The notes below the pieces were generated by a model, which did no database searches, had not been told where the DNA came from, and was given only the letters and a program-made list of their open reading frames with translations. A program made the position numbers and the translations under genes. Source: Clavelina lepadiformis (lineage: Eukaryota > Chordata > Ascidiacea > Aplousobranchia > Clavelinidae). From it: a stretch of 64,000 nt of DNA. Numbering within the stretch: position 1 is the first letter of the stretch; every line of letters starts with the position of its first letter. Location of the stretch: the NCBI RefSeq assembly GCF_947623445.1, contig NC_135245.1, positions 2,549,501 to 2,613,500 on the forward strand, written 5' to 3'. This document shows, piece after piece, positions 535 through 12,195 of the stretch.

Positions 535-3017
535 TCAGTGCCGAGCCTTTATCTTGTAATACTTTAGACCTGTAAGACACATGACGCCTTTTAATATGCA
601 GATATCACGGTGTAATCTAATGCAACATTAGTTGGTTAAAAGCTTTTGTAAACTACAGCTTTCGCAATGATCTAATGTATTGATGATGACTGAACCTTTA
701 CCTGCTAAGGCCCCCTGGAATCCCGCGTTGTAGTCAGTGGCCACCTCGTTGGCGACGTAATCATCTCGGGCATCCTGGTAACCGTCGTCTTTATCCGGAC
801 CGGCAATCAAAGCCCCGTACAAAGTGTAAGGGTTGGCGCTGTTGCTGTGGAAGGAATTTCCCCAGGTGCACTCACCGGGAGGTGACGGGCAAGAGCTAGA
901 ATAGAAATTTTTCAAACTGAGTGCTTTTCGGCCAAAAAGGAGAAAAAAATGACGTGTCTGTCAGCGTGACGTCACAATCTTTATTTGTTACGCCGTTATA
1001 CCTCGATCTGTGGTGTGGTTTCTTCGGAGGATTTTTTCCGTATCCGACCACGTAGCTTCTACCGCTAGATCCGAGCATATAGTGGATCTGGGATTCGGCG
1101 AATCTTCGGTAACTTCGTGCGTTCGGCATCGAAGGAATCTTAGTTGCGGCCAGCGCAATGAAAGCGGCGTTTGCTGCAAGAAGGTAAATTATCGCAAGTT
1201 ATTCATAAGTTTCTCTGCTTCATACACAGAGCTATGAAAGCACATAAATTTGAAGAACTCTAACTGATAAAAGCAAACTTGTGTAGTTTCTCAGGCTTTT
1301 CTTTTCAAATGTTAATGCGTATATGGTAGTGTTTCCAATTGTTTTACCTGCGTATCTGTTTGATCCCCATTTATCAAGCCACACCAGACCCTTAGGTGTT
1401 TTGCGAGCACCTCCGCCATTCAAAAAGCGTTGGTACGCGGCTACGTGGTCTTTGTATTGCGACTCACCGGTTAAGTTAGCTATAAGAACCTGTGATGTTT
1501 AAAACATTGCTTAATTAAAGACATTGTCCAGTTCTTTAAAGTTCTTTATTCTCTTTAAAGAATAGTTTGATTAAAAGTCACAAGCGACTGCTCCTGCCAA
1601 TCAAATATCCGATTTTTCCGTCAATTATCTTTACCTGTGATCCGGCTCTCTTGTCATCCCACGAGAACATATACGGAATATTTCCGCCTCCAAATTGCCT
1701 GTATTTGCTCTTCGCGTCATCCAGATATTTTCCTTCTCCAGTCGCTTTGTACAGCCACAGAGCTCCCCAGATAAGCTCATCGTTGTAACCACTGTACGAT
1801 TTGTAGAATGAGTTGACATTTGGGATAGATTTGTGATAACTTCCCCTGCAAAAGTAGAATAATGATCGTAAATAAGGGAATAAAAGATAGTATAAGCCTA
1901 TATAAAAAGACTACATAAGCCTAAATGCGACATAAATCTGAAGATAATATTACAAGTGTCTTAATTCTCAAATAACTTGATGATGTTAAAATTTATTAAA
2001 AACGAAATCTGCCAAAACTTGCCTGAATCGATCGGCAAACTCATAAAGGTCCTTCGCGTGTCGTACCAGCAGATCGGCGTAGGAGCTGTCTATCTCACGG
2101 AAGATGACGGAGCAGGCGGCCATGGCAGCAGCAGTCTCAGCCGCCACTTCGGAACCGGGATTGCTGCGATTGATTTTGTAACTCGGCCGTCTCATCGACA
2201 TTTGCTCCGGTCGGCCCCAGTACGAATGATCGGCGTTGCCGTCTCCAACCTAAGTTGAAACGACGACATAAGCGACAGGAACAATCACAGAATCACGCTT
2301 GTTCATATCGTTGCAATCTTACCTGGCCGTAGAATTCGTATTTCGAAGGGTGAGCCTTTATAAAGTAGTCAGTGACCCATTTCAATGAGTTAAGGACGTT
2401 GCCGTATTCTCCAGAGTCTACGTAAGCATCCTTGAATTCAATCACACCCCAGGCAAGGGTGGTGACCGACCAAGCCATGGGTAAACCGAACTTGACGTGA
2501 TCTCCGGCTGTATAATGATTTGAAACATTAACTGGCGTTTTCGCCTTTATTCTTACACAAATAACAAAAAATGTTATAAATACATAATACACAAATCATT
2601 CAAAAGTATTTAGTTTTTCAATCACATAAATTTACATCGTGTTAATAATGTTTTAATCCGAAGAGGACACTCACCGTCGTACCATCCTCCGGTGAGGTCA
2701 CGGTTCACGTCACATCCGTCACGAAGGCCAGAATCTCCTCTCCACGGGATGCGGTTGTTTCGAGGAAGTTTCCCTGATCTCTGAGCCTCGTAGAAGAGGA
2801 TGGAGAGGGAAATGACCTCGTTGTAGTCGTATGGGACTCGCTCTATACCGTCCCAGTGAAAAATGCCAAGTGTTAAAAATCTTGCTTAACTTGCGCTCTA
2901 CCTTGCGGTTAAAGTTTGTCGATTTTCTTACCGTTTGGAGGTGATCGTTTAAATGATGGTCTCGTTTGGCGGGGATTGGATGGCATCCTGCCTGCAGAGC
3001 CGCTGCATCTGCTCGAG
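535..3017 (-). other. GH9 catalytic module 2, exons 30-38
   Basis: About residues 1325-1797. Six exons have exactly the lengths of their partners in module 1 (168, 185, 227, 211, 142 and 172 bases). It keeps [11 protein letters not shown] (Asp about 1409 and 1412), [23 protein letters not shown] and [17 protein letters not shown] (Glu about 1772). It ends [10 protein letters not shown] then TGA. Intron 33 (2022-1846) uses a GC donor (AG|GCAAGT). Both modules look catalytically complete. Confidence 0.9.
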
Positions 3018-12000: not shown

Positions 12001-12195
12001 AATTTACGACGGTTATGTTTTTTGTTTTCTTTGCCACAGTTTAGCTGGAGGCATTGCGTCACGCGTATTCGGTAACCTGATAATTTTGCAAACCTGTTTA
12101 CTTTGTTTTATAAATATTTTGTTGTAAACATTTTACTTACCGTAAACAAAACAGAGCAAAACAAAAAAAGACAAGAATATCCTTTTCAAAGTCAT
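535..12195 (-). CDS. Secreted mosaic cellulase with two GH9, two CBM2-like and two CCP domains
   Basis: Predicted endo-1,4-beta-glucanase (GH9), secreted, 1797 residues. Exons in order: 12195-12141, 11907-11853, 11756-11661, 11442-11377, 11174-11122, 10867-10816, 10624-10529, 10337-10287, 10175-9946, 9359-9304, 9204-9104, 9027-8852, 7910-7816, 7725-7654, 7517-7256, 7146-6977, 6852-6714, 6548-6420, 6360-6167, 6091-5952, 5829-5732, 5607-5440, 5214-5030, 4914-4688, 4574-4364, 4253-4112, 4007-3836, 3708-3518, 3405-3114, 3017-2932, 2842-2675, 2507-2323, 2249-2023, 1845-1635, 1489-1348, 1173-1002, 895-702, 569-535. All junction phases agree and the total is 5394 bases. The start is the ATG that opens a signal peptide; the end is TGA after a short tail like the one closing the first GH9 module. 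The least certain join is exon 29 to 30 (donor at 3113): without it the first GH9 form stops at once and the second GH9 would have no start or signal of its own. GH9 enzymes with CBM2-type modules are known in animals; this double arrangement I do not recall. All functional claims rest on motifs. Confidence 0.82.
3114..3405 (-). other. Asn/Ser/Pro-rich inter-domain linker, exon 29
   Basis: Starts [13 protein letters not shown], finishing GH9 module 1, then gives about 85 residues of Asn runs and [13 protein letters not shown] repeats. It ends at a donor read as CCCAA|GTAAGAG. If that intron is kept, translation reads AAG TAA and stops at 3110-3112, giving a protein with a single GH9. If spliced, AA joins C at 3017 to make Asn and the frame runs into GH9 module 2. 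Confidence 0.75.
3518..5829 (-). other. GH9 catalytic module 1, exons 21-28
   Basis: About residues 764-1232. Visible family marks: [11 protein letters not shown] across the exon 22/23 junction, whose two Asp (about 851 and 854) are the expected catalytic base pair; GSNRYA; a QIxYMLG region followed by PHHR, the substrate-binding His motif; and [17 protein letters not shown], with Glu near 1213 as the expected acid. About 460 residues is normal for a GH9 domain. No key residue is missing, so it should be active. Confidence 0.92.
5952..6360 (-). other. Charged helix and Asn-rich linker, exons 19-20
   Basis: Exon 19 (6360-6167) encodes about 35 residues that are almost all Glu, Arg, Gln and Lys with periodic Leu/Ile, a likely single alpha helix or coiled coil. 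Exon 20 (6091-5952) is dominated by Asn with Arg, Pro and Lys. The donor of exon 19 (GAT|GTAATA) is the weakest part of this join. Between a cellulose-binding and a catalytic module this could be a stiff spacer; that is inference. Confidence 0.65.
6420..7146 (-). other. CBM2-like module 2 plus Gln/Asn linker, exons 16-18
   Basis: About residues 506-651. It reads [12 protein letters not shown], then a strand with [12 protein letters not shown], then [20 protein letters not shown], a Trp-Asn pair (NTWNTN) and a closing Cys (FLCPSG). The order matches module 1, so the two look like duplicates that have diverged far. Exon 18 continues into a linker made of Gln, Asn, Ser and Gly. The assignment rests on spaced Trp and Cys residues and on linkage to GH9. 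Confidence 0.6.
7256..7517 (-). other. Pro/Thr/Gln-rich linker, exon 15
   Basis: Low-complexity exon of 87 codons with repeated QRPTQRP-like units and a Thr run, ending in a short ordered stretch with GNC that begins the second CBM2-like module. This is the kind of flexible linker seen between binding and catalytic modules of cellulases. Confidence 0.75.
7654..9359 (-). other. CBM2-like cellulose-binding module 1, exons 10-14
   Basis: About residues 252-418. The module opens with a Cys (NECPVPDF), then [27 protein letters not shown] and KVMSWNSDM, and closes near a second Cys ([11 protein letters not shown]). This follows the family 2 order of Cys, paired beta strands with spaced Trp residues, then Cys. 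Such modules bind crystalline cellulose through exposed aromatics. Similarity is by pattern only, and the last 25 residues (exon 14) are unassigned. Intron 12 (8851-7911) is the longest of the gene and holds nothing recognisable. Confidence 0.6.
9946..10175 (-). other. Thr/Arg/Pro repeat linker, exon 9
   Basis: One exon encoding about 76 residues, nearly all Thr, Arg and Pro, in a repeating unit close to [12 protein letters not shown]. It probably is an extended, O-glycosylated spacer between the CCP pair and the first CBM2-like module. The repeat also makes a long Val/Gly/Leu-rich reading frame on the opposite strand, which is an artefact. The exon ends in phase 1, matching the next exon. 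Confidence 0.8.
10287..10867 (-). other. CCP (Sushi) domain 2, exons 6-8
   Basis: About residues 109-175. It shows the same three-exon layout and phases as CCP1 (52, 96 and 51 bases; the middle exon is the same length). Key segments are [33 protein letters not shown] and [10 protein letters not shown], holding the Cys framework and the Trp near the end. The shared exon structure suggests an internal duplication. A short Thr/Pro linker (exon 5, 11122-11174) separates the two CCPs. Confidence 0.78.
11377..11907 (-). other. CCP (Sushi) domain 1, exons 2-4
   Basis: About residues 19-90. Three exons of 55, 96 and 66 bases carry the pattern of a complement control protein module: a first Cys before a hydrophobic strand, [16 protein letters not shown] in the middle with the Cys-x3-Cys and Gly-Tyr features, then a Cys, a Trp and a last Cys. 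The last exon runs into Thr residues that begin the next linker. CCP modules usually bind proteins or glycans; the partner here is unknown. Confidence 0.75.
12141..12195 (-). other. Exon 1: signal peptide of the cellulase mosaic
   Basis: Encodes [18 protein letters not shown] and ends in phase 1 at a GTAAGT donor. A basic start followed by an uninterrupted hydrophobic run is a classical secretion signal, which fixes the start codon and the extracellular location. Confidence 0.85.

Follow-up and report, generated by a model that had tools for sequence, protein, structure and literature searches.

A probable single gene of Clavelina lepadiformis predicted to encode a secreted protein with two GH9 cellulase domains and CBM2-like and CCP-like modules

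We analysed a window of 64,000 nucleotides of Clavelina lepadiformis DNA (C6:2549501-2613500), by which we mean the whole stretch examined, and searched the 209-Mb assembly of the same genome for GH9 cellulase domains. On the best reading of this DNA, one minus-strand gene encodes one modular secreted protein containing two GH9 domains together with CBM2-like and CCP-like modules. The gene probably specifies a secreted cellulase in which a signal peptide is followed by a pair of CCP-like modules, a pair of CBM2-like modules, and two catalytically complete GH9 domains, and would have arisen from its ancestor by duplication within the gene. In the predicted protein, the modules are separated by Thr/Pro- and Asn/Gln-rich linkers.

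The rebuilt model runs from 12195 to 535 and contains 38 exons and 37 introns encoding 1793 residues. A first-pass annotation, made from the sequence alone, had described a gene at this location with a signal peptide at 12195, a stop at 535, agreeing exon phases at all 37 junctions, and a product of 1797 residues. The location, the 38 exons, and the junctions were recovered, all 37 being compatible in phase, whereas the length was corrected to 1793. A signal peptide was likewise read in exon 1, where the best 10-residue mean hydropathy was 3.02. The introns comprised 36 of the GT-AG type and one of the GC-AG type, between exons 33 and 34. Because the reading frame had guided the choice of exon ends, matching phases are by themselves weak evidence; hence, independent checks of the model were sought. 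A spliced aligner, blind to the gene model, was given only the sequence of PDB 1KS8, which we take to be the termite enzyme NtEgl, and it returned the same seven GH9 exons as the model in each copy. Compared with the model, the first aligned exon lacked 11 bases at its start and the last aligned exon lacked 1 base at its end, as expected of a local alignment. When the splice sites were scored with a position matrix built from 75 introns, the weakest were the donors of exon 19 (-1.2 bits) and exon 2 (1.5 bits) and the acceptor of exon 31 (-0.9 bits), where boundary errors are possible. Furthermore, the module borders were all in phase 1, which is the rule for exon shuffling in extracellular proteins, and the same phase was found at the module borders of a paralog on chromosome 5 (L031), which was modelled separately and used to compare the CCP and CBM exons.

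Subsequently, the GH9 domains were examined. Pfam Glyco_hydro_9 scored 1016.4 bits over two stretches, the best of which covered positions 1-444 of the 444-position profile. Among solved structures, GH9 A matched 1KS8 best (E 2.8e-154), and each GH9 domain of the window showed 54% identity to it. Asp54, Asp57, His359, and Glu412 (1KS8 numbering) were kept in both domains; Asp54, Asp57, and Glu412 are the catalytic residues. As the first-pass annotation had stated, each copy has the Asp pair, the motif PHHR, and a late Glu, and the 1KS8 alignment revealed no stop codon within either spliced domain. The same annotation had suggested that the product could be a "processive-like" double enzyme. 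In Cel9A-type (Cel9A/E4) enzymes, processivity is given by a CBM3c behind the GH9 domain. CBM3c was not found here, and the full protein matched only GH9 and CBM_2 by Pfam at E<=1; accordingly, processivity is not indicated and this suggestion was left unsupported.

Copies A and B were identical at 371 of 443 residues, with a nonsynonymous divergence (dN) of 0.10. The synonymous divergence (dS) was 1.25-1.29, not being computable in two of the seven segments, and the pairwise dN/dS of approximately 0.08 is a rough ratio that is not informative for either copy alone, since dS is near saturation. By these values, the pair is old and, taken together, constrained. Inside these otherwise diverged copies, exons 22 (5440-5607) and 31 (2675-2842) were 97.6% identical, with a dS of 0.11, and the remaining five equal-length GH9 exon pairs were 70-90% identical. 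When the eight A/B intron pairs were compared by blastn, no match longer than 15 bases was found. Near-identical exons beside unlike introns suggest recent local gene conversion between exons 22 and 31 as the simplest account. The near-identity might instead be taken to mean that one of the GH9 copies is dead or stems from a misassembled haplotype, but we regard an assembly artefact or pseudogene as highly improbable: the other exon pairs, the introns, and a dS of approximately 1.3 show two diverged copies, neither spliced domain has stops, both keep the catalytic residues, and the exon 22/31 pair fits local gene conversion.

The CCP-like modules were recognized by way of their paralogs. Neither window module matched Pfam Sushi, and a single-sequence PDB search with the pair gave no significant match (best E 0.11). 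Against the Sushi cut-off of 20.7 bits, the paralog module of L039 scored 27.0 bits, that of L031 20.7 bits as a piece (the full-length L031 protein gave no Sushi match by Pfam), and that of L046 22.0 bits as a piece and 18.4 bits in the whole protein. When the window pair was compared with the three paralogs, the match was 96.9% with a score of 51.4, the maximum over 200 shuffles with the cysteines fixed being 33.7. A four-row profile of the two window modules and two paralog modules matched pappalysin-1 in PDB at E 1.3e-4 to 4.5e-4, as a sum of weak stretches; complement receptors appeared only at E of at least 0.03, and some unrelated chains at E 1-2.5. The cysteine framework and the Trp ahead of the last Cys were present, along with cysteines beyond the four of a usual CCP module. 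We therefore take the window modules to be divergent CCP modules with extra cysteines; the CCP assignment of the first-pass annotation thus stands through the paralog profiles and not through a direct Pfam match of either module.

The CBM2 assignment fared similarly. The first module scored 20.3 bits against Pfam CBM_2, under the curated cut-off of 24, and the second had no Pfam match; when the window modules were scanned directly with Pfam and NCBIfam, only this sub-threshold CBM_2 emerged. Single-sequence PDB searches were not significant for either the first (E 0.32) or the second (E 1.1) CBM-like piece. None of six related modules passed CBM_2: three lay below the cut-off (20.3, 18.4, and 13.1 bits, another family scoring 14.1 bits on the last) and three had no match. 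A genome search with PF00553 gave no match; the modules are split across exons. When the six modules were combined, however, the profile matched four solved CBM2 at 87.4% (score 35.5; maximum 18.05 over 200 column shuffles) and at 66-91% with any single row left out, and its four best matches in PDB were CBM2-type chains (EngD CBM2 group) at E 0.009-0.074, none below 0.001. An earlier four-row profile had given 3% against CBM2, which was not significant, and significance was reached only once two further modules, those of paralogs L038 and L039, were included. At the equivalents of Trp17, Trp54, and Trp72 of Cex, which we take to be its aromatic binding residues, the first module has W, W, and H. 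The second module gave only 3% directly against the CBM2 profile and 80% against the family of the first module (score 35.8; maximum 18.3 over 200 shuffles). Taken together, these findings give good support for the first module being CBM2-like and moderate support for the second.

One gene spanning both GH9 blocks is favoured over two on account of the homology of exons 30 and 21, the phase-1 borders, and the lack of a signal-peptide-like start between the GH9 domains. Exon 30 aligned with exon 21, the linker exon that precedes GH9 A, with a protein score of 93 against a shuffled mean of 26.5, and none of 500 shuffles equalled it; the DNA identity was 59%. Exon 29 stays open for 86 codons past the point at which copy B stops, an extension with a chance of approximately 0.002 from the intron stop rate, a value that is approximate owing to the low-complexity sequence. 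The exon-29 donor lay within the top 3.6% of 634 GT sites. Six ATGs occur between 3600 and 2830 and none starts a signal-peptide-like stretch: three could be scored and had hydropathies of 1.13 or less, compared with 3.02 at the real start, and the other three open 25 codons or fewer. Two separate tandem genes, with GH9 B having its own start, would result from tandem gene duplication, a common process, and the ATG at 3073 does read in frame into exon 30. This ATG, however, sits within intron 29, so that a transcript would have to begin in or keep that intron, and the peptide opened by it has a hydropathy of 0.87, compared with 3.02 at the real start, and does not resemble a signal peptide. 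Moreover, the gap between the GH9 blocks is only 675 bases and consists partly of two linker exons, and the homology of exon 30 is to a linker rather than to a signal-peptide exon. We consider two genes improbable.

One locus might also give two products. The TAA at 3110 overlaps the exon-29 donor and so acts only when intron 29 is retained; retention, or polyadenylation at the AATAAA close behind it at 3105, would yield a single-GH9 protein ending in ...ALAPK at 3110, and splicing would yield the double form. This arrangement is conceivable but unlikely, since AATAAA is frequent here, with 11 copies in a scan of 12.3 kb, and the tail of the single-GH9 product would be a linker joining nothing. 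Several results do weigh against a single gene with the modules described. The acceptor of exon 31 was the weakest of 37 and that of exon 30 the sixth weakest, and a shorter transcript could end at an AATAAA between the GH9 parts, where one lies at 3105 and another at 3442. Exon 21 resembled the corresponding linker of L031 weakly, 19 of 500 shuffles equalling the score. The window CCP pair gave just 2.6% against the CCP of L039 alone, and the CCP-like and CBM2-like modules of the window themselves fail the Pfam cut-offs. The near-saturation of dS, described above, belongs here as well. The single-gene model nevertheless remains the favoured one, and its features are listed in Table 1. An Rfam scan of the window gave no match, and the four open reading frames of at least 140 codons elsewhere in it had no Pfam match at E<=0.01.

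Table 1. Positions of the predicted gene parts and nearby motifs in the window
Feature	Position	Strand	Basis
TATAAA motif, ~220 bases 5' of the start codon	12413..12418	-	motif scan; consensus match only, one of nine TATAAA in 12 kb scanned
Exon 1, start codon and signal peptide	12141..12195	-	gene model; hydropathy 3.02
CCP-like module 1, exons 2-4, eight cysteines	11377..11907	-	profiles with paralogs; no direct Pfam match
Thr-rich linker, exon 5	11122..11174	-	gene model
CCP-like module 2, exons 6-8	10287..10867	-	profiles with paralogs; no direct Pfam match
Thr/Arg/Pro linker, exon 9, containing a 36-base tandem repeat	9946..10175	-	gene model
First CBM2-like module, exons 10-13	7816..9359	-	Pfam CBM_2 20.3 bits (cut-off 24); profile-profile 87%
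Exons 14-15, module end and Thr/Pro/Gln-rich linker	7256..7725	-	gene model
Second, more divergent CBM2-like module, exons 16-18	6420..7146	-	no Pfam match; 80% to the family of the first module
Linker exons 19-21, first charged and later Asn/Gln-rich, ending with exon 21, the linker exon ahead of GH9 A	5732..6318	-	
GH9 domain A with all catalytic residues, exons 22-28	3518..5607	-	Pfam, 1KS8 alignment
Junction exon 29, end of GH9 A reading through, without a stop, into an Asn/Ser/Pro linker	3114..3405	-	
In-frame TAA overlapping the exon-29 donor (AA/GTAAGA, slash at the splice point), used only on intron retention	3110..3112	-	
Linker exon 30, homologous to exon 21	2932..3029	-	protein alignment with shuffles
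GH9 domain B with all catalytic residues, exons 31-37	702..2842	-	Pfam, 1KS8 alignment
Exon 38, final codons and stop	535..569	-	gene model
AATAAA, candidate poly(A) signal	95..100	-	motif scan

The ancestor would have had the order CCP, CBM2-like, CBM2-like, and GH9, as in L031, and the window gene most likely formed through an internal tandem duplication of its linker-GH9 block. A single mRNA would then cross both GH9 blocks. Judging from the modules, the product is expected to be secreted, to bind cellulose, and to act as an endoglucanase: the CBM2-like modules may hold the enzyme on solid cellulose, the GH9 domains may work as side-by-side endoglucanases with a higher catalytic density at the surface, and the CCP-like modules may provide contact with protein or matrix.

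In the genome, at least 69 exon-level GH9 matches were found, which resolved into 13 domains at 10 places. All three catalytic residues were kept in six of these (window A and B, C5:1.73, the second domain at C2, C7, and C4). The other seven lacked Glu412 together with one or both of the Asp; they would be inactive and thus candidate pseudo-cellulases in an animal that makes cellulose. Window A and B were sisters in the tree (100/99), which sets their doubling apart from those at the C2 and C3 double loci; as only three of 11 inner branches were well supported, the tree beyond this pair does not settle an older doubling common to the double loci. The first-pass annotation had placed a double GH9 in the window gene. 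The two domains were found as described, and the doubling is not unique to this gene: paired GH9 domains recur at two further loci, clearly at C3:21.9 Mb (L036) and less so at C2:6.9 Mb. In L036:442-7354, one exon carries both the linker and the beginning of the second GH9, in frame with the first GH9, and none of the seven ATGs between 3301 and 4080 opens more than 26 codons. Both GH9 domains of this locus look dead. At its C-terminal end, a hydrophobic tail recognized by eye may serve as an anchor signal. At C2:6.9 Mb, a dead first GH9 is joined in frame to an intact second one. As proof of fusion, this locus is weakened by the ATGs at L033:3892 and 3788, each of which begins a hydrophobic stretch, the one at 3788 reading in frame with the second GH9, and further by a junction in phase 0, not phase 1; a separate start for the second GH9 is possible.

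Other paralogs carry the modules in various settings. L039 has CCP and CBM2-like modules in a single open frame (7168-5996) before a dead GH9 and shows the combination directly, although its CBM2-like module has no Pfam match of its own. L038 and L039 (C5:13.53 and 13.54 Mb) are two genes, each with an inactive GH9. Upstream of the CCP and CBM2-like modules, L039 has an NRG2_N-like domain (PF25518, 42.2 bits, cut-off 27; joined by eye over one intron), and L038 has a similar stretch upstream, as judged by eye. A long open frame on the minus strand of L038 (4985-6265), before the inactive GH9, contains many copies of the repeat TEAPIELQTEAPSKLE. L046:3178-5626 (C5:2.08 Mb) encodes a short secreted protein of 231 residues with one CCP and one CBM2-like module, ending in a stop. 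No GH9 was found in the 10 kb examined near it, and the gene seems to be a shortened copy of L031.

Since CCP and other extracellular modules are found in members of the family, several of which have a dead GH9, we lean slightly towards tunic or matrix rather than food cellulose as the substrate, an attractive idea. More broadly, and only tentatively, the GH9 fold in Clavelina may have been used as a shuffled extracellular module, doubled within genes at least twice, joined to CCP, CBM2-like, and NRG2_N-like modules, and catalytically stripped in seven of 13 domains. The family would then consist of cellulose-binding matrix proteins and of enzymes building or remodelling the animal's own tunic, the window gene being an active double enzyme. 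In the literature, the digestion of food cellulose is attributed to animal GH9 (PMC10334666), ascidian GH6 is tied to tunic formation (PMC10986139), tunicates are described as the only cellulose-making animals (PMC6523144), and two papers on the tunic treat the horizontally acquired CesA and GH6 genes (PMC10986139, PMC10334666). A native GH9 family with cellulose-binding and complement-type modules, doubled catalysis, and inactive copies would amount to a second toolkit for tunic cellulose, and the window gene and its relatives are concrete genes for testing how tunic cellulose is handled.

The window domains share the catalytic Asp pair and Glu with animal GH9 endoglucanases (1KS8 and mollusc GH9). 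1KS8 is a single catalytic domain of 433 residues, whereas the window gene has tandem GH9 domains preceded by N-terminal CCP-like and CBM2-like modules. Among bacterial multi-catalytic cellulases, CbCel9A/Cel48A (CelA) carries CBM3 in place of CBM2 and, to our knowledge, no CCP, and its second catalytic domain comes from another family, unlike that of the window gene. CelA is similar to the window gene in having two catalytic domains per secreted chain, the first being GH9 (PMC3865294). In Corbicula japonica, a family 2 CBM with high affinity for crystalline cellulose is linked to a bivalve cellulase; the excerpt thus describes CBM2 with an animal cellulase, as in the window gene, and mentions no CCP or doubled GH9 (PMC11805347). 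The first-pass annotation had considered the architecture undescribed in animals. Judged by titles and the beginnings of abstracts, no animal protein with CCP and two GH9 domains occurred among the open-access matches listed, gene annotations of C. lepadiformis being outside this scope. L031 is also close: its signal peptide and CCP are followed by two CBM2-like modules and then by GH9, so that the order and the border phases are those of the window gene; it differs in having one CCP and one GH9, the latter 58-60% identical to those of the window. Each part of the window gene is thus of a known kind, and, within the papers searched, their combination appears new.

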